From Sulfurimonas sp. GWF2_37_8 (lineage in GTDB: Bacteria; Campylobacterota; Campylobacteria; Campylobacterales; Sulfurimonadaceae), in the NCBI GenBank assembly GCA_001829625.1, contig MIBW01000100.1, forward strand, positions 1 to 45,670: DNA of 45,670 nucleotides, read 5' to 3'. Below are positions 448 to 10,171 of the stretch, piece after piece. The translations under genes were made by a program, and so were the position numbers. Below the pieces are notes generated by a model that saw only the letters and a program-made list of their open reading frames with translations, did no database searches and had not been told where the DNA came from. How positions within the stretch are numbered: the first letter of the stretch is position 1; the number at the start of each line of letters is the position of its first letter.

Positions 448-1076
448 TCTAAAGTCCTCCATGGGTGGCTTGCAACACTTCCGCTATTGGTGGCATAGAC
501 ATAAAAACTCACAAGAAGATTATTTGAAGTATTATTTATATTAATTTGTATTTTTTTTATGTTGGAATTGTTCCCAAGAGTACCAAACGAGCCAGAAGCA
601 GAAACATTAATATCTTTTTTATACTGAAATTTATACCCCGTGGAACTACCTACACTTCCTGTGGCATTTGCTGCTGTCGTTATATAGTCGTCAACATCAT
701 CTTCTCTTGTTTCTCCAGTCTCAGAACCAAGGGTAGTTGGACGGATAGCCCTACTGTTATTAGTATTGTAAAGAATTTTTACATTTCCAGATCTCCCTTG
801 CAGATCATTTGCAAGGGAAGCAGTAGCTTCGGCATCGTTTATATAAATGATATGCTCATAGTCATCATTGCCTATTCTGCTATTTTCATCCCAAGCAGAA
901 GAGGTTACTTTGGTAATCTCAGAGAAGGCAATAAAAACAGCTTCTTGAAGCAAACTATTTTCACTTCCTCTGGAGATAACTTGAGAAATTGTAGGTAAAG
1001 ATAAGACAGCAATACCTATGATAACTATAGCAAAAATAAGCTCAATCAGAGTGAATGCATCTTTAAGCTTAAGCAT
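444..1076 (-). CDS. Pseudopilin, prepilin-type N-terminal cleavage/methylation domain
   Basis: A 210-residue protein beginning MLKLKDAFTLIELIFAIVIIGI, a typical prepilin leader with cleavage before FTLIE and the conserved Glu at +5, followed by one hydrophobic helix and a polar, Ser/Thr/Asn-rich head. I chose ATG at 1076 rather than the TTG two codons upstream used by the ORF track: it overlaps the adhesin stop codon by one base (TAATG), the usual coupled arrangement. It ends in an ATGA overlap with the next pseudopilin. The position directly downstream of a large secreted lectin-like protein suggests a minor-pilin set that displays or exports that protein. Function beyond pilin class is inference. 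Confidence 0.88.
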   Translation of the reverse strand: MLKLKDAFTLIELIFAIVIIGIAVLSLPTISQVISRGSENSLLQEAVFIAFSEITKVTSSAWDENSRIGNDDYEHIIYINDAEATASLANDLQGRSGNVKILYNTNNSRAIRPTTLGSETGETREDDVDDYITTAANATGSVGSSTGYKFQYKKDINVSASGSFGTLGNNSNIKKIQININNTSNNLLVSFYVYATNSGSVASHPWRTLE

Positions 1077-4000
1077 TACCAATCCAGCCTTTTATTTGTC
1101 CAAAAAGCACCTCGTCCAACTGCTGTATTGTTAGTATCTTTAATACCTGTCCAATCAGACTCTAAACTTTGGAACTCTACTTCAAAATTATTTTTTGTTG
1201 CAGAGGCATTATACATATTATAAATAAGCCAGCGAGAAGCATTGTTTTCCATTGTAGTTTTATATGGATAGCCTTTACTTTTATCGTATGAAAGAGTTGT
1301 ATTATCTGGATTTGTTCCTGTTGTATTGGATGCATCTACTGTATCACTGGCTGCACCAGTTCCTCCTTTGTGGATAATTTTTCCAACAACTCCTGAATTT
1401 GTAGGGCTGTGAGATGTATTCTTAAACCATCTTGGGTCATCAGTATTTTGAGATGTACTACCGTTTGGAAGTAGTGTTTTATCACATACTGTTGCACTGC
1501 CATCAGTTTTATTACAAAAAACCTCATAGTAGATTAGTCCTGTTCCTGTATCGCCTATAAAAATTTGTTTGGGTGCATTTGTTTTACCATAAACAAAACT
1601 TTTATTAGTGTTTAGTATTGCACCGTTAAAATTTTCAGGAGAGCCAGAGTCGCTCATCCAATCAGTAGAGGTATTCGCATCAATAACTGTTATTAGGACA
1701 GGATTCAGTGCGCTTGAGTTATTTCTGTCTATATTAAAATATACAGTAGCTTTTCCAATACCATTATCAAATTGAAATGGTGCTATCCATTCTTGAATAT
1801 TATTTACTCCTGCAACCAAGGATTGATTTTTGGTTGGTGTCCATATCCCGTTTGAGTCATTATCTTCACTGTATAAACTTATATTCACAACAGCAGAACT
1901 ATTGATATTAAGATCTAAATCAAGATCAAAAGTACTATTGATCTTTAGACCATTGACACTTGGCGCATTAGTATCTGGAAAACATGTGGCAGTGTAGTTT
2001 TTTACAGTGTTGCCATCTTTATTTTTGGCTGTAATCACATATGAAACATACGCCGACATATCAGGTGTTGTTGAGGTTGTATTGGATTGATTGATGTCGT
2101 TCATATAAAGCCAATCCATACCATTTGTAGTCTCATACGTTGCACTTGTATTAAATGAATATGGAGTAAATAATAATATATTTGTTTTGGATATATCTGT
2201 TATATCATGTACCAAAGTGGCAGGAGTGATATATCTTTCTTGATCATTTGTGTCATCTGCGTCGATTAATGCAAATTCACTTCCTGGTATTTCACTAATA
2301 TTTACATCAACAATACCTGCTTCACTATACTTTATGGATGTATTAACTTCACCATTTATGAAGCTGGCAGGTGTTATTGTAAAGATTCCTGATTCAGGAC
2401 AAAGTGTGACATCAGTCTTTCCTGTATGGTTTTGCATGAGTGTGATATTTGTGGAAGATGCAGCATAGGTCTCAGAGGTAACATTTAAAGTAGAACTAGA
2501 TGCATTGTAGTCACTTGAGCCATTTACATCTAAAGCAGTTCCTGTATTTTTAGCAAATTGAGTTTCGTTAACAGCTTTTATAGTGATGTTGAAATCCTCT
2601 GCAGCTCTTTTATACTGGTTTTGACTAAAAGCTTTAAACGCATGAGGTCGAATAGCAAAATTATCACTTGAACATGTAATATTTGAGTCAAGAGTACACA
2701 TGAGACACCCATAATCATTTGCATATATTCCAGTTCCAACTCCATTATTGTTTGATTTGCAAGGTTGTCCGTTATTGTTATAACATCTTTCCCATGCGGC
2801 ATCACCGAATATTTTTTTATATTTAGTTTCTGAATTAACACACGATCCTATACCCTGAAGATTTCCTATAGTGGATGAGTTGAGTAAACATGATTCATAA
2901 AAAGATGCTTCATATATTTTACTCATATCTAAAGCTGAAAGAGAAAATCTTGTCACAGCTATGGCAGTATTTGGCATGTAGCCAGAGGCTGTTGCTGCAG
3001 CATTTCCATCGGTAATATTGATGACTAAAGGATTGCCGTCAGCATCTAAAACAGGTGCTCTTTGTGTGCAAGTATCGTCCGAAATATAAGGGATGACTTT
3101 AAAAAATAAAGCTGGATTTATTGATGTAAATACTTCTGCATTTTGACTTTCATTGAGACGTACAGCCGTCAGAGGCTCAAGTTTATCTGAAACTTTTGTT
3201 TTGATATATTTTGAGTTAGAGTTAGGATTATTGTAGTTGTCGATATTAAAGTCATCAACCATGTCCGCTAAACTTGTGCTTAAAGGGGGTTGTTCTGGAT
3301 CATAAGCTCTACATATACCACTAACTTTAAGGTTGTCAATTTCGTGATTATTAGTTGCACCACCAGTTCCAGCAGTGAGTGCAAATCTTACAAGTTCGGG
3401 CGTTGTTGTTTGACCATATTGAGCATCTTTAGCATCAAATTGATTGATAACAACTTGATAACCACTCCCTGTATTTCTTTCTAATGTGATATAAAGATGA
3501 TTGGGATCTCTTGCATCTGTAGTCATTTTGTACCTATGTCCAGGGGCTGGGATACTTGTGTCTGCATTAGCAACTGCAGGATTAAGTTGCTCTGATGCAG
3601 CTAAAAAGTCGTAGCCTGATGTGCCTGAACCATCACCACGGATAGTTGCATAGTTTGGATATCTGTCAGTACAAGAAGTGGTATTTATACCACCTACCTT
3701 ACCTTCACTACAATTTGCGAAATTTCCAAATTCATCAATTCCTAAGCCTAACCAGCCCCCTTCAAAACCAGCCGTACTTGTAGTGCCATAAACCATTTGC
3801 GCATATCCCATGGCTCCACCCTGAGCCCCTGTTGTTGGTGAGGCTCCAACTGCACTATCGTACAAAACAGCGACCATACCATCACCACCATATGGAGCAC
3901 CAGAATTATGATAAATATTTCCACCATAAGCAAATTGGTCAAATTCAACAACAATCATATTATATTTAGAAGGAAATTCATAATCCTTTGTTACTGCAGT

Positions 4001-5032
4001 TGTTCCACCGCTAGCAGGTGTTAAGCGAAGACGACTGTCCACTATTTCGGGTGTAACTCCATTACCTAGTGTTCTCCATTTATCATCTAATGAGCCATCA
4101 TTAAAATCATCTTCATAACAAACAGGTAGATTTTCCGCACTTTGTTCTAATATTTGAATTTCTGTAGGGTTGGTACCAATTTGCACATCACCGCTAGCAG
4201 TGACATTTGAGATTTTGAGCGTAAAACTTTCTTGAAGCTCGATCTCTATGTCATGGTAAATAGGTATAGAAATTATTGTTTCTGTCGCTCCAGCGGGAAT
4301 AGTTATCCTTCCTGAGACGGCGATAAAGTCTGAACCAGCTAGCGCAGTTCCATCAATAGTACCATAATCAAACGCAACGGGATATGTAACAGCTTTAGAG
4401 AGTGTTATCCTTGTTTCTAAGAGGCTTGTAGAACCTACTGCAGCACTATAATTTTCTGAGATTTGGTAAATTTCTAAAGGAAACTTGATAATGATTGGAC
4501 ATGCATTAATTTTTGCTTTATACCGTGTTGTACCTTTTGTAAACAATGCATTAAGAGAGACATTTTCCCAATTAAAAGAAAATGTAGAATAATCATAAAT
4601 AGTATGCGTTTCTTCACTGCTAAAGGTACCATCTCCATCAGGATAATATATTATTCCTTTGTCAAATATACCTTCCATGGCAAAAGAACTAAAAGTAGTA
4701 AGGAGTGTTTGGTTCACTTCTGCACTATCATCATCTGAATCTACTGTCTTTTGGACTCCATCAAGTTTTATCTCACCCATTAAGCTCATATTGATGTCGC
4801 TAAATGATTTAATAATGGTTACATCAGAAAGAGTTTCCTCTCCGATATTACGTAGAATGATTGTAGTGCCATAGAAGGTTGTCCCTGGTAATACGGTTGT
4901 CTCATCTGTTGTTACTGAATCATAACAGATATCATCAGCACTTGCTATATCATCTCCCCATCCATAAGCAGCAAATATCATCATCAGTCCGCAAATAGGC
5001 ACCAGTTTTGTAAATATATCAAAAGGTTTCAT
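1076..5032 (-). CDS. Large secreted Calx-beta/lectin-like surface protein, MshQ-like
   Basis: A 1318-residue exported protein, first gene of a pseudopilin operon. Residues 1-26 form a signal peptide. Residues 190-297 read as a Calx-beta domain (GTALAGSDFIAVSGRITIPAG, then the ELQESFTLKISN strand). Residues 305-570 resemble an L-type/ConA-like lectin (GGDGMVAVLYD, GGWLGLGIDEFGNF). The remaining ~740 residues are Asn/Thr-rich beta-type sequence with several Cys pairs and the element FAIRPHAFKAF, as seen in MshQ/DUF6701 proteins of MSHA pilus loci. The start is firm: AGGAGG lies a few bases upstream of ATG 5032. Probable role: a pilus-associated adhesin outside the cell. Domain calls are from motif recognition only, so the MshQ link is moderate. 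Confidence 0.75.
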   Translation of the reverse strand: MKPFDIFTKLVPICGLMMIFAAYGWGDDIASADDICYDSVTTDETTVLPGTTFYGTTIILRNIGEETLSDVTIIKSFSDINMSLMGEIKLDGVQKTVDSDDDSAEVNQTLLTTFSSFAMEGIFDKGIIYYPDGDGTFSSEETHTIYDYSTFSFNWENVSLNALFTKGTTRYKAKINACPIIIKFPLEIYQISENYSAAVGSTSLLETRITLSKAVTYPVAFDYGTIDGTALAGSDFIAVSGRITIPAGATETIISIPIYHDIEIELQESFTLKISNVTASGDVQIGTNPTEIQILEQSAENLPVCYEDDFNDGSLDDKWRTLGNGVTPEIVDSRLRLTPASGGTTAVTKDYEFPSKYNMIVVEFDQFAYGGNIYHNSGAPYGGDGMVAVLYDSAVGASPTTGAQGGAMGYAQMVYGTTSTAGFEGGWLGLGIDEFGNFANCSEGKVGGINTTSCTDRYPNYATIRGDGSGTSGYDFLAASEQLNPAVANADTSIPAPGHRYKMTTDARDPNHLYITLERNTGSGYQVVINQFDAKDAQYGQTTTPELVRFALTAGTGGATNNHEIDNLKVSGICRAYDPEQPPLSTSLADMVDDFNIDNYNNPNSNSKYIKTKVSDKLEPLTAVRLNESQNAEVFTSINPALFFKVIPYISDDTCTQRAPVLDADGNPLVINITDGNAAATASGYMPNTAIAVTRFSLSALDMSKIYEASFYESCLLNSSTIGNLQGIGSCVNSETKYKKIFGDAAWERCYNNNGQPCKSNNNGVGTGIYANDYGCLMCTLDSNITCSSDNFAIRPHAFKAFSQNQYKRAAEDFNITIKAVNETQFAKNTGTALDVNGSSDYNASSSTLNVTSETYAASSTNITLMQNHTGKTDVTLCPESGIFTITPASFINGEVNTSIKYSEAGIVDVNISEIPGSEFALIDADDTNDQERYITPATLVHDITDISKTNILLFTPYSFNTSATYETTNGMDWLYMNDINQSNTTSTTPDMSAYVSYVITAKNKDGNTVKNYTATCFPDTNAPSVNGLKINSTFDLDLDLNINSSAVVNISLYSEDNDSNGIWTPTKNQSLVAGVNNIQEWIAPFQFDNGIGKATVYFNIDRNNSSALNPVLITVIDANTSTDWMSDSGSPENFNGAILNTNKSFVYGKTNAPKQIFIGDTGTGLIYYEVFCNKTDGSATVCDKTLLPNGSTSQNTDDPRWFKNTSHSPTNSGVVGKIIHKGGTGAASDTVDASNTTGTNPDNTTLSYDKSKGYPYKTTMENNASRWLIYNMYNASATKNNFEVEFQSLESDWTGIKDTNNTAVGRGAFWTNKRLDW

Positions 5033-5132: not shown

Positions 5133-5330
5133 CAAGCGGTCAAATAATCGAGATACGACTTATTTGCGAATTCTTTATTATACAACTTTTATTTCATTCC
5201 TAAGCTTTTGCATCTCAATAAATTATGTATTTAGTCATTGAAACTAGATTTTGAATCTCGTTAATGGAGTTATAAATAAATATTAAATTCTGAGCTAAAA
5301 TTAAATCAAGTATCATTTTTGTATAATTCT
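5133..5330. other. Non-coding spacer between adhesin promoter region and 6S-like RNA
   Basis: AT-rich sequence without a supported ORF. It holds a minus-strand TATAAT (5177-5182) reading toward the adhesin gene, and at its right end a plus-strand TATAAT (5322-5327) reading into the RNA candidate. A small AGATT-TTG-AATCT dyad is visible near 5247-5259. I see nothing else in it. Confidence 0.5.
5322..5327 (+). promoter_or_regulatory. -10 box for the 6S-like RNA
   Basis: A perfect TATAAT placed so that transcription would start around 5332-5335, exactly at the 5' strand of the RNA's long closing stem. No clear -35 element, as usual for this phylum. The agreement of box and stem supports a dedicated promoter. 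Confidence 0.6.
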
Positions 5331-5536
5331 AAAAGCAATCTGGATAGTTCGACGCATCGTTTATGTGAGGGTTCTACATATTCAAACCGCGAACTAGTAG
5401 AGCTTTCGTGTGCCGGTGTTTTCGTTTGAGATACGTTGACTCTGTCGAGAAAATGTCGCCGTTAGAAAGTTCTTGCTTCGCCTAAATACGGCTTTTAGAA
5501 CTAAGCCAATAACGAGACGGCTATCTGGGTTGTTTT
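5331..5536 (+). ncRNA. ssrS: Candidate 6S RNA upstream of purD
   Basis: The ends pair over 16 consecutive positions counting G-U pairs: 5332-5347 (ending AATCTGGATAG) with 5521-5536 (CTATCTGGGTT...). Inside, GAGCTTTC (5400-5407) pairs with GAAAGTTC (5465-5472), capping the rod with a terminal stem-loop. Between the two stems is a large, mostly open bubble; its 3' side carries a GGCTT/AAGCC hairpin (5490-5507). A rod of ~200 nt with a closed end, a central bubble and a terminal loop is the 6S architecture, which mimics an open promoter and sequesters sigma-70 RNA polymerase. TATAAT sits at the correct distance. From memory, 6S is also next to purD in Helicobacter. No terminator is obvious, so the 3' end may be processed from a purD read-through transcript. 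The class is inferred from structure and position, not from an alignment. Confidence 0.62.
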
Positions 5537-5616: not shown

Positions 5617-6885
5617 ATGAAAATATTAATATTAGGTAATGGCGGAAGAGAATATTCTATCGCTCGTGCGATTTTAAATGAAAAAAAGGGACATGAGCTC
5701 TTTTTTCAACCTGGAAACGGTGCTACAAACACGCTCGGAACAAACCTAGATATTAAGGATTATAATCAACTAGCAGAGTTTGCAAAAGAAAACGCGATAG
5801 AACTGACTATAGTAGGACCTGAAGCTCCTCTCGTAGAAGGTGTTGTAGATGTTTTTAAATCACATGGACTTGTTGTTTTTGGCCCAAGCAAAGAGGCTGC
5901 ACAGCTTGAGGGTTCAAAAGTTTATATGAAAAATTTTCTTGCTAAATACAATATTCCAACAGCACGTTATATAGAAACTGCTTCAATTGAAGATGCGTTT
6001 AAATTTACCAATACACTTAGTGCGCCAATCGTTGTCAAAGCAGATGGACTTTGTGGTGGCAAAGGTGTCATCATTGCCATGAGCCATGATGAAGCAAAAG
6101 TGGCTATTTCAGAGATGCTTAGCGGTAAGAGTTTTGGAGATGCAGGTAAAAAAGTAATCGTAGAAGAGTTTTTAGACGGGTATGAGCTTTCAATGTTTGC
6201 TGTGTGTGATGGAGAGGATTATATTCTTCTTCCTGCGGCACAAGACCATAAAAGACTTCAGGATAATGACCAAGGACCAAATACGGGTGGTATGGGTGCA
6301 TACGCACCAACACCTCTTGTGAATGAAATTTTATATCAAAAAGTAAGAGAGAGAATCATTCGCCCTACTTTAGATGGTATGCAAAAAGAGGGAGCCCCTT
6401 TTGAGGGTGTCCTTTTTATTGGTATTATGGTAGTCAACGGTGAGCCGATTACTTTGGAGTTTAATGTACGTTTTGGAGATCCAGAATGTGAAATACTTAT
6501 GCCGCTTATGACATCGAGTGTAAGTGATATGTTTTATAAAGCTGCCACAAATAGACTTTCAGAGATTGAAGTTGCGTTTTCATCGCAGTATGCCGTGGGT
6601 GTTGTGATGGCAAGTGAAAATTATCCATATAAAAATTCTACGCCAGCTGAGATTATTGTAGATGATGTACACCACGAAGAGATAGAAAAATACACACATA
6701 TTTCGTATGCCGGTGTGAGTATGGAAGATGAAAAACTCTATGCCGATGGCGGTCGTGTTTTGGTCTGCGTTGGTTTGGGTGATACAATCAAACAAGCAAG
6801 AGATAGAGCTTATATGCGATGTGGACAGGTGCATTTTGCTGGTAAAAAGCTGCGTACAGATATCGCTTATCAGGCACTTGCATAG
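5617..6885 (+). CDS. purD: Phosphoribosylamine--glycine ligase
   Basis: GAR synthetase, step two of de novo IMP synthesis: it joins glycine to phosphoribosylamine using ATP, in the cytosol. The 422-residue length is normal. The start [19 protein letters not shown] is the typical N-terminal PurD dinucleotide-like fold. The ATP-grasp part follows, with [13 protein letters not shown] near 140, [26 protein letters not shown] near 208-233 and [11 protein letters not shown] near 280, all signature PurD motifs. GGAGAAAAG precedes the ATG. It follows the 6S-like RNA and is one base from the RDD gene, starting a purD-RDD-lptD-PRTase-pnp run conserved in Helicobacter. Identification is secure. Confidence 0.97.
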
Positions 6886-6886
6886 A

Positions 6887-7336
6887 ATGAATGAAGAGAT
6901 AGAGAATCTCCTTCACAGAGAAAATATAACTTTAGCAGAGACAAAAAAAAGAGCGCTTGCGTTTTTTATTGATGAGATGCTTCTCTCTTTTTTACTTATC
7001 ATAGTGCTTTGGGATAGTTTTGTTTCTGCGGCAAATATGGAAGAGATTATCAATGTGACAAATATGTTTGTTTTAGAATATATGTTTATGAAAATAGCAT
7101 ATCAGGCTTTTTTTACAATGCAATACGGTGCTACTATCGGTAAAATTCTTATGAAGATACGTGTTATTGAGATAAAAACGGTTGCTAATCCCAATGTTTT
7201 ATCTTCACTGAATCGTGCTATTTTTCGTATCATCAGTGAGATGGTTTTTTATCTTGGTTTTCTTTGGGGTATGCTAGATCCAACGCGCCAGACGTTCCAT
7301 GATAAAACCGCAAAAACTCTGGTCATAAATGTATAA
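6887..7336 (+). CDS. RDD family membrane protein
   Basis: 149 residues from ATG 6887, one base after the purD stop. The ORF track start at 6728 lies deep inside purD and is rejected. It shows the RDD pattern: a basic KKRALAFFIDEM entering the first hydrophobic helix, two further hydrophobic segments, a conserved GATIGKILMKIRVIE stretch and a terminal TRQTFHDKTAKTLVI motif. RDD proteins are small inner-membrane proteins; some are linked to ion or solute transport, but none of that can be assigned here. It overlaps lptD by eight bases. The conserved place between purD and lptD may mean a role in envelope biogenesis, which is inference. Confidence 0.85.
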   Translation: MNEEIENLLHRENITLAETKKRALAFFIDEMLLSFLLIIVLWDSFVSAANMEEIINVTNMFVLEYMFMKIAYQAFFTMQYGATIGKILMKIRVIEIKTVANPNVLSSLNRAIFRIISEMVFYLGFLWGMLDPTRQTFHDKTAKTLVINV

Positions 7337-9494
7337 ACTTCTTGGTATATTTCTTCTTTGTATCTCTCTGCTTCAGGCTGAAGATAAAGTAGAGATATAC
7401 GCCTCCTTAGTTGACTCGAGCAATAATATTGTAAACGCAAGCGGTGATGTTACGGTCATCTACAAAGATTATTTTTTAAACGCAAAGAGTGCGATTTACA
7501 ATAAAGAAACAGGTGATTTGGAACTTTTTGAAAATATCCGTGCTACGTATGATGGTCAATATAGAATCCTTGGGGATTATGCAAAACTTAATATCAAAAG
7601 AAAAGAAAAAATATTCAAACCTTTTTTTATGCTAGAAAACTCTTCGGAGGTCTGGATAGCAGCGAATGAAGGTGTAAACAAAGATAAAGATCTTCAAATA
7701 GAATCTGGCGTTTTAAGTGGATGCGAACCGGAAAATCCTCTTTGGAAGATGGAGTTTGGTTCATCTGAGTACAACACTGATTCTCAGTGGATGAGTCTTT
7801 ACAATGCAAGACTTTATATCTATGATATCCCGATTTTATATACTCCTTATTTTGGATATTCGCTCGATACGAGACGACGAAGCGGACTTCTTATTCCAGC
7901 TATGGGTTTGTCTCAAACAGAAGGTTTTTTTTATGAGCAGCCTGTTTATATAGCTGAGCAGAATTGGTGGGACCTTGAACTGAAACCTCAAGTAAGAACA
8001 CAACGTGGGTCTGGCGTGTATGCAACACTGCGTTTTGTGGATAGTGAAATATCTGCTGCTGAATTAAAAGTTGGGTATTTTAAAGAAAGGGATGCTTACT
8101 TTAAAGAGCAAAATCTTGTAAACGACAGCCATTACGGTTATAACTTTAAATATGAAAACAAAGATGTAATCAATCAATGGTTTGGAACAGAGTTAAAAGG
8201 TCAGTCGGGTCTTTATGCAGATATCAATAAGATGAACGATGTTGATTATATCAACCTTTCATCCAACGATACATTTAACACCGCTACTTCTACGCAAGTG
8301 CTCTCAAGAGTCAACCTTTTTTATAATACTAATAATGATTATTTAGCAGCATATTTTAAGTATTATGAAGATTTGACAAAATTAAGTAATGCAGATACGC
8401 TCCAGCAGCTTCCCGTTACCCAGTATCACCACTATTTAGATACGCTTCTGGATGAACACCTACTGTATAGTTTGGATGCGAGAAGTACAAATATTGAAAG
8501 AGAATTGGGTAAGACGGCACTCCAAACAGATATAAACTTACCTGTAACTCTTTATACTTCTCTTTTTGATGAGTATTTAAACCTCTCCTATAAAGCAAAT
8601 CTCTATGGGCAGCATACAAAATTTAGAGAACATGAGCAGATAGTTCTTCCTGGAGTTGAGTATAACGATGGCTATTTTGCAAGGTACTATCATGTATTAA
8701 GTGCTTCTACGGATTTGACACGCAGTTTTGATGCATATACTCATATAGTCTCTTTTTCTTCAAAATATACTCTTGGTGGTAATGATGCAACAACAGGCTA
8801 TTATGAGGATTTGGGAGATATCTGCGCCAATCCGGAAAATCAAGATTTAACTCAGTGTGAGTTTTATAATATAAAAGATATAGATGAAGCTGTTGAATTT
8901 GATATGTCTCAATATGTATATGATGCACTGGGCAAAGAGATGCTTTATCATAGAATGGCACAAAAGTTTGTCTATGGAACGCTAGAGACAAAAGCTGGAG
9001 AATTAGAAAATGAGCTTGATTATAAAATTACTGATTCTATAAGTATCTACAACAATATGTTTTATAACTTTGATGAACATCTTTTTTCAAAAATATTTAA
9101 TCAAGCTTCCTATGATGGCTATGGGTTTCGCCTCTCTCTTGGGCATATGTTTCGAGATACTTTTTTGCCAGATACAACGACAAGCTTAAGACGTGCAAGT
9201 TATTTAACATCAACAGCACGATATACTTACAACCGACATTATTCTTACCATACACGCTATGATTATGACGTAGAATCTTCTCAAAGAAAAAGTTTAGAGT
9301 TTGGATTTTTGTATAAAAAAAGATGTTGGGATTTTGGAATACGTTATGCTGAAAATAACAGGCCTGTACTGGCAAATGATGGGCAGTCTTCGATATATGA
9401 CAGATATGTTTACTTTACGATTGTTCTTAAACCATTTATGACTGCAACAAAAGAAAATGGAGAGTCAAATATAGCAATGCGACTCAATGAATAG
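7329..9494 (+). CDS. lptD: LPS assembly outer-membrane protein LptD
   Basis: A 721-residue outer-membrane protein that, with LptE, inserts lipopolysaccharide into the outer leaflet. Signal peptide MYKLLGIFLLCISLLQA, then an OstA/LptA-type beta-jellyroll (roughly residues 20-125: DVTVIYKDYFLNAKSAIYNKETGDLELFENI), then a long LptD barrel rich in aromatic and charged strands. Conserved early barrel text includes YDIPILYTPYFGYSLDTRRRSGLL. Cysteines near SGCEPENP, ICANPENQDLTQC and KKRCWDFG fit the disulfides of the family. It overlaps the RDD gene by eight bases. Its neighbour order matches Helicobacter. Confident at family level. Confidence 0.93.
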   Translation: MYKLLGIFLLCISLLQAEDKVEIYASLVDSSNNIVNASGDVTVIYKDYFLNAKSAIYNKETGDLELFENIRATYDGQYRILGDYAKLNIKRKEKIFKPFFMLENSSEVWIAANEGVNKDKDLQIESGVLSGCEPENPLWKMEFGSSEYNTDSQWMSLYNARLYIYDIPILYTPYFGYSLDTRRRSGLLIPAMGLSQTEGFFYEQPVYIAEQNWWDLELKPQVRTQRGSGVYATLRFVDSEISAAELKVGYFKERDAYFKEQNLVNDSHYGYNFKYENKDVINQWFGTELKGQSGLYADINKMNDVDYINLSSNDTFNTATSTQVLSRVNLFYNTNNDYLAAYFKYYEDLTKLSNADTLQQLPVTQYHHYLDTLLDEHLLYSLDARSTNIERELGKTALQTDINLPVTLYTSLFDEYLNLSYKANLYGQHTKFREHEQIVLPGVEYNDGYFARYYHVLSASTDLTRSFDAYTHIVSFSSKYTLGGNDATTGYYEDLGDICANPENQDLTQCEFYNIKDIDEAVEFDMSQYVYDALGKEMLYHRMAQKFVYGTLETKAGELENELDYKITDSISIYNNMFYNFDEHLFSKIFNQASYDGYGFRLSLGHMFRDTFLPDTTTSLRRASYLTSTARYTYNRHYSYHTRYDYDVESSQRKSLEFGFLYKKRCWDFGIRYAENNRPVLANDGQSSIYDRYVYFTIVLKPFMTATKENGESNIAMRLNE

Positions 9495-9514
9495 TCGGGT
9501 GTGAGGATAAAAAT

Positions 9515-10171
9515 ATGAAACAGTATAAAAATATTTTAAGAGATCGCCACGATGCTGCTAAAAAATTAATAGATGTCATCCCAATGCAAAAATTTAAGGA
9601 TGAAGCCTGGAAAATCGTAGCAGTTTCATCTGGAGGTTTATTGCTTGGTTCTTATATTCGGGGAAGATATTTAAATAAATTGGATTTTCTTTTTTCTGAA
9701 GCAATTATGGCACCAAACAATAACGAGTGTGAGATTGCACGCGTTAGTGAAAATGAAGAGATAGTTATAAATGAAGAGTTGGTTTCATCGTTTGATATAA
9801 AATATGACTATATTTATGGTGAAGCCAGACGTAAACATGAGGAAGAGATACTTAGCTGCGTTTATCAATACAGAAAAGGACGCCATTTCTCTTCGGTAGC
9901 AGGTGAAGTGGTTTTGTTGATTGACGAAGGCAGTGAGACGGGCTCTAAGTTGATGTCAGCACTAAAAACTGTACTCTCTGAAAATCCAAAAGCAGTTTAT
10001 ATCGCTGTGCCTGTTATTCCAAGTGATGTGTTAGAGTCACTAGAGGTATTTGCGGATGATGTTTTTTTTCTCTATGATATAGATGATTATGTAGAAACGC
10101 AGCTCTATTATGAAGAGTTGGAACCTGTAGATGATGAGACAATAGAAAAATTATTAGAGGAACAAAAATGA
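9515..10171 (+). CDS. Phosphoribosyltransferase-like protein (COG1926 type)
   Basis: 218 residues, beginning RDRHDAAKKLIDVIP and continuing IVAVSSGGLLLGSYI, like the DR.DA..LA..L and LPRGGVPVA segments of COG1926 phosphoribosyltransferases. Later elements also match in order: RRKHEEEILSCVYQYRKGRHF, VVLLIDEGSETGSKLMSAL (the PRPP-loop region, in which the family DDGIATG is changed to DEGSETG), AVYIAVPVIPSDVLESL and a C-terminal DDETIEKLLEEQK. The substrate is unknown; the family is not an established nucleotide salvage enzyme. AGGA lies upstream of ATG 9515, and the stop overlaps pnp as ATGA. Note that the glycine-rich LPRGG is reduced to VSSGG, so activity is uncertain. Confidence 0.75.
   Translation: MKQYKNILRDRHDAAKKLIDVIPMQKFKDEAWKIVAVSSGGLLLGSYIRGRYLNKLDFLFSEAIMAPNNNECEIARVSENEEIVINEELVSSFDIKYDYIYGEARRKHEEEILSCVYQYRKGRHFSSVAGEVVLLIDEGSETGSKLMSALKTVLSENPKAVYIAVPVIPSDVLESLEVFADDVFFLYDIDDYVETQLYYEELEPVDDETIEKLLEEQK

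Follow-up and report, generated by a model that had tools for sequence, protein, structure and literature searches.

A probable 6S RNA in front of purD in the Campylobacterota, carried under a cis-regulatory label

Introduction

6S RNA is very widespread in bacteria. The closest described relatives of the element reported here come from two members of the Campylobacterota, Campylobacter jejuni and Helicobacter pylori. In C. jejuni, the most abundant small RNA besides the ribosomal and transfer RNAs lies before purD and is 185 nt long; it begins further upstream than an earlier proposed "purine riboswitch", folds like a 6S RNA and yields a 13-nt antisense product RNA (pRNA) (Porcelli et al. 2013, PMC3847290). 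The same region before purD in H. pylori is cited as 6S RNA in that paper's mention of earlier work (PMC3847290). We analysed a stretch of 45,670 nucleotides from Sulfurimonas sp. GWF2_37_8 (contig MIBW01000100.1, positions 1 to 45,670 of the forward strand), hereafter called the window, in which a preliminary description, made from the sequence alone, had placed an unannotated structured RNA of about 206 nt, probably 6S RNA, in front of purD. We consider, with a probability of about 95%, that positions 5334-5536 encode this bacterium's 6S RNA, which would be transcribed from a sigma70-type promoter of its own and, by analogy with Escherichia coli and Bacillus subtilis, act on the RNA polymerase. 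The identification is based on the promoter box, the full closing stem, the central bubble, the apical stem, the near-phylum-wide presence of the RNA and the closing-stem nucleotides that it has in common with E. coli.

Results

The plus strand of 5331-5536 folds with a minimum free energy of -61.7 kcal/mol, as compared to -51.0 +/- 4.3 kcal/mol for dinucleotide shuffles (z = -2.5, with 0 of 200 shuffles as good), and the structured RNA described previously is thus real; the minus strand of the same interval folds ordinarily (z = -1.35). A closing stem, a large central bubble and an apical stem are arranged in one rod, which is the layout of 6S RNA. The gene and the elements of its rod are as follows.

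5334 to 5536, plus strand: 6S RNA gene, predicted length about 203 nt, from the fold and from a score of 131.9 bits over 5335-5534 with the full-length model R1 (see below), in whose training set the window is included; its start predicted from the -10 box and its end from the closing stem and U-run
5332 to 5351, plus strand: 5' arm of the closing stem, with nucleotides of the type CUG....GUUCG, pairing with 5518-5536 (covariation)
5518 to 5536, plus strand: 3' arm of the closing stem, CGGC.....GG, running into a U-rich end (covariation, count of T-rich tails)
5357 to 5361, plus strand: 5' strand of the upper closing stem, UCGUU, pairing with 5511-5515 (AACGA)
5511 to 5515, plus strand: 3' strand of the upper closing stem, AACGA, pairing with 5357-5361
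5399 to 5406, plus strand: 5' strand of the inner stem, eight pairs with 5466-5473
5466 to 5473, plus strand: 3' strand of the inner stem, pairing with 5399-5406
5414 to 5458, plus strand: apical stem (5414-5423 with 5449-5458) and terminal hairpin (5430-5433 with 5443-5446) (covariation)

Strong covariation of the closing stem is seen across 40 diverse relatives (alignment A1): 95.8% of its cells are paired, 68 cells carry changes on both sides as against 23.6 +/- 3.8 in shuffles, and pairing falls to 28-49% (maximum 48.5%) when the partner is slid. It comprises 17 consecutive pairs in the window (5332-5348 with 5520-5536), the innermost of which is a G-U, so that the 16 pairs counted previously are a fair figure. 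The internal eight-pair stem of that first account was also recovered, with changes on both sides at 7 of its 8 pairs, and is followed by two apical helices; in the apical stem and terminal hairpin 92-93% of cells are paired and 10 of 13 pairs show double changes. The upper closing stem, compared among 23 members of the window's family, is 92% paired, and each of its 5 pairs shows double changes there. The covariation in relatives that had been proposed as a check was thus found in the closing, upper closing, inner and apical helices, and the complete 39-pair structure shows covariation like that of the closing stem in the 40 sequences. An alternative partner for the closing-stem 5' arm, columns 101-107 (7 pairs, 92% paired), was rejected, since this pairing showed no double changes and was no better than shuffles.

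The promoter of the RNA is marked by a single element.

5322 to 5327, plus strand: -10 box TATAAT of the sigma70-type promoter of the RNA itself (sequence, exact match)

The box is exact, as claimed earlier, and lies just outside the interval 5331-5536 within which it had been included. Because of its position, the RNA is expected to start near A5334 or G5335 (+1). The predicted size fits the proposed class, the length becoming about 203 nt rather than about 206 nt; the only measured transcript is that of C. jejuni, at 185 nt. Of 90 loci, 75 have an exact TATAAT no more than 25 nt ahead of the closing stem, as against 1.5% of random windows; the closing-stem 5' arm in these 90 loci was located partly by its ability to pair, and covariation is therefore the fairer measure. 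A scan for consensus promoters and terminators, which requires a -35 hexamer, did not report the TATAAT and reported no terminator. A T-rich tail follows the closing stem in 44 of the 90 loci (background 16%).

It had been expected that ordinary annotation would miss this RNA. It does not, since one Rfam family covers the 3' two-thirds of it.

5397 to 5530, plus strand: match to the Rfam purD RNA motif, RF01069 (70.2 bits, E = 2e-11, gathering cut-off 41)

The RNA is consequently unannotated as a 6S RNA, and already named at gathering level as something else: RF01069 is typed Cis-reg in Rfam. The RF01069 model opens at the 5' end of the inner stem, which leaves the closing-stem 5' arm outside it, and treats the last ~20 nt as unpaired. 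No other Rfam family comes near its cut-off in the window. RF01069 matches 282 of 298 genomes of the phylum. R1, a full-length covariance model built from 40 sequences, the window among them, recovered the RNA from 14 of the 16 remaining genomes (E values from 1.9e-17 to 2.4e-6; none of the 14 belongs to the training set), and the RNA is therefore present in 296 of the 298 genomes sampled. The weakest of these 14 R1 matches (genome G117) has purD and the RDD gene behind it; in two genomes, G007 and G174, neither model found the RNA. Loci titled C. jejuni and Campylobacter coli match both RF01069 and R1, with fitting length.

The preliminary description held that resemblance to enterobacterial 6S RNA was too low to see. 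It is visible once the closing stem is compared with that of E. coli ssrS. The two arms read UCUGAGAUGUUCG / CGGCAUCUCGGA in E. coli, CCUGAGUGGUUCG / CGGCCACUUGGG in the phylum consensus and UCUGGAUAGUUCG / CGGCUAUCUGGG in the window, where the conserved 6S closing-stem nucleotides GUUCG and CGGC lie at 5347-5351 and 5518-5521. Lying equally far from the 5' end, the ssrS closing stem attains 15.4 bits on the family profile; of 20000 random perfect stems 16 score as high, and of 3000 shuffles 7. The nucleotides CUG..GUUCG/CGGC..GG are among the capital (conserved) letters of the consensus of RF00013, the Rfam 6S family. In the apical region, CGAGAAGCCUUAAA of E. coli resembles CGAGAAG..GCCUAAAG of the family, and the order of CGAGAAG and GCCUnAAA is alike in the two; these likenesses were noticed after the fact, and no signal came from aligning the apical region to E. 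coli without gaps.

Several observations weigh against the identification as 6S RNA. RF00013 has no match in the window at E values up to 10, and R1 does not match E. coli ssrS; as the two models do not cross over, homology rests on the motifs, the layout and the published work on C. jejuni and H. pylori. No growth-phase regulation was seen for the 6S RNA of C. jejuni, unlike that of E. coli (Porcelli et al., PMC3847290). Finally, the binding and release of RNA polymerase are attributed to this organism by analogy, on the basis of other species. If the failure of both models were taken at face value, one could suppose a structured RNA unrelated to 6S and merely similar to it, as a long rod with a central bubble. 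We regard this as extremely improbable, given that the closing-stem nucleotides are common to E. coli at the same place and that a pRNA is made in C. jejuni (PMC3847290). Moreover, the locus titled C. jejuni, a species with a reported 6S RNA, equally has no RF00013 match at E values up to 10, so that the failure of this model, a detection tool and not a defining trait, is uninformative. The covariance search with the Rfam 6S model that had been suggested as a check in fact finds nothing in the window, in its own genome or in 41 genomes of the phylum, and it thus offers no second 6S candidate either. The claim that the RNA is probably 6S is on the contrary supported by its size, layout, promoter and covariation, by the E. 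coli closing-stem nucleotides and by the C. jejuni and H. pylori reports (PMC3847290).

The link with a purine gene noted previously is real as adjacency, and concerns the following gene.

5617 to 6885, plus strand: purD (glycinamide ribonucleotide synthetase; Pfam GARS domains), the next gene downstream and the first of a conserved purD-RDD-lptD block, kept in most of 20 diverse genomes

In 86 of the 90 loci, purD follows the RNA on the same strand at a distance of 15-220 nt, and in many species only 15-20 nt separate the end of the RNA from the start of purD. This proximity, together with the Cis-reg type of RF01069, would suit a leader acting on purD only, a riboswitch or attenuator sensing a purine-related signal. 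Such a leader should be constantly linked to purD, which is not what we found. Five genomes of family f5 carry the RNA away from purD, with no copy of it beside that gene; in G261, purD is gone from the block and the RNA remains before RDD-lptD; in G222, the RNA is present and purD was not detected (an assembly in 60 contigs). The RNA, being kept in all of these, is not just a purD switch. Nor is the adjacency specific to purD, since RDD and lptD are equally conserved in position: purD, RDD and lptD lie near the RNA in 19, 18 and 20 of the 20 diverse genomes, respectively, and the upstream gene in none. With the discrete 185-nt RNA and the antisense pRNA of C. jejuni (PMC3847290) also standing against it, a role as purD leader only is very improbable. 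The purine link looks like part of a conserved purD-RDD-lptD operon preceded by the RNA, and is no proof of a purine function.

One might still imagine that the RNA has two roles, acting in trans as 6S RNA and forming the 5' part of the purD operon transcript, with 3'-end formation of the 6S RNA setting the amount of purD. The gaps of 15-20 nt would leave little room for a separate promoter, and the T-rich stretch after the closing stem and the conserved leader position ahead of purD-RDD-lptD also fit. As the RNA is maintained where it is separated from purD, we hold this double role to be rather unlikely, and 6S RNA remains our preferred reading.

The block extends over 5617-10171 in the window and contains purD, the gene of an RDD-family membrane protein, lptD and a phosphoribosyltransferase-like gene, the last being found in 12 of the 20 genomes. 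On the other side of the RNA, both on the minus strand, lie a large Calx-beta-domain protein of 1318 aa (1076-5032), not found near the RNA in 20 other genomes, and beside it a pilin-like protein with an N-methylation motif (444-1082). At the f5 loci L086, L087, L118, L119, L121 and L122, a shortened RNA of ~175 nt is not linked to purD, and the RF01069 match is weak or absent.

The large bubble with a side hairpin of the first account is also present. Its elements are the following.

5362 to 5396, plus strand: 5' strand of the central bubble, with the near-invariant motif GAGGGUUCUACAU, phylum consensus GGGGUCCAACA (alignments A1 and A4)
5490 to 5507, plus strand: 3' hairpin of the central bubble, GGCUU/AAGCC (5490-5494 with 5503-5507), loop UUAGAACU (fold, family alignment)
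5370 to 5375, plus strand: 5' strand of bubble helix C, GGUUCU, pairing with 5497-5502 (AGAACU)
5497 to 5502, plus strand: 3' strand of bubble helix C, AGAACU, here in the loop of the 3' hairpin, in most other families in its 3' arm

Helix C, which emerged from a scan of all column pairs, joins both strands of the bubble (GGUCC with GGGCC) and has 98% pairing across its five pairs. In A1, 29 cells carry changes on both sides, as compared to 10 in shuffles, cells being counts of sequences and not of events; a chance helix that ranked similarly had no double changes. The variants are GATCC/GGGTC in Campylobacter-like loci, GGTTC/GAACC in the window's family and AGTCT/AGGCT in two f2 loci, and several lineages are therefore involved. 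In most families, helix C and the bubble hairpin exclude each other, because the hairpin's 3' arm doubles as the 3' strand of the helix. A shift of the hairpin in the window's family places the partner, AGAACC/U, in the loop; there helix C is 100% paired and almost invariant, so that covariation within this family speaks neither for nor against it. Computation gives a mixed preference, the mean probability over 40 sequences being 0.29 for helix C and 0.45 for the bubble hairpin, and forcing helix C in the window costs 1.6 to 2.8 kcal/mol. A third possible state of the bubble, within 5370-5402, pairs GUUC with GAAC near 5391 and UUCUAC with GUAGAG near 5397.

These data tentatively suggest a conserved bubble switch in Campylobacterota 6S RNAs, for which we would put the odds somewhat below even. 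GGUCC of the 5' strand would pair with GGGCC of the 3' strand (here GGUUCU 5370-5375 with AGAACU 5497-5502), excluding the 3' hairpin in most families and being allowed as a loop-strand pseudoknot in the window's family. Such a switch would set the binding and release of polymerase, as a differently wired counterpart of the B. subtilis collapse helix.

Discussion

Across the whole phylum, a 6S RNA is annotated under a misleading name, the label of purD cis-regulator hiding it. With the class corrected and a full-length model in use, 6S RNA would be annotated in 296 of the 298 Campylobacterota genomes sampled. Relative to RF01069, the upper closing stem and helix C are new, both being absent from that model. 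The RNA itself, a housekeeping RNA, is known from two relatives; its closing stem, its upper stem and a possible bubble switch are added here, the possible switch being the novel part.

By analogy with the 6S RNAs of E. coli and B. subtilis, the RNA would mimic an open promoter. Its central bubble may bind the housekeeping RNA polymerase holoenzyme in this organism, and the bound polymerase would be held off promoters until it templates a short pRNA on the bubble and is thereby released. A discrete transcript and a pRNA would be expected on the model of C. jejuni, where they measure 185 nt and 13 nt (PMC3847290). The covarying bubble helix offers a concrete, mutable target for the study of how polymerase is released in this lineage.

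The 6S RNAs of C. jejuni and H. pylori (PMC3847290) are alike to the RNA of the window in position before purD, size class and layout, and R1 finds the sequence titled C. jejuni; they belong to other species, and the shifted 3' bubble hairpin with AGAACC/U in its loop is a trait of the window's family. The RF01069 motif matches 5397-5530 and differs in being typed as cis-regulatory instead of 6S. With E. coli ssrS and RF00013, the RNA has in common the closing stem CUG..GUUCG/CGGC..GG, the central bubble and an apical arm with CGAGAAG and GCCUnAAA, whereas there is no covariance-model match either way and the bubble sequences are not visibly alike. Like helix C, the collapse helix of B. subtilis 6S-1 RNA (PMC8876501) closes the central bubble, competes with its open form and has a small 3' bubble hairpin next to it. 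In B. subtilis the distal 5' bubble is paired with the 3' strand of helix P2, whereas helix C, supported by covariation rather than probing, would join the 5' bubble to the region of the 3' bubble hairpin.
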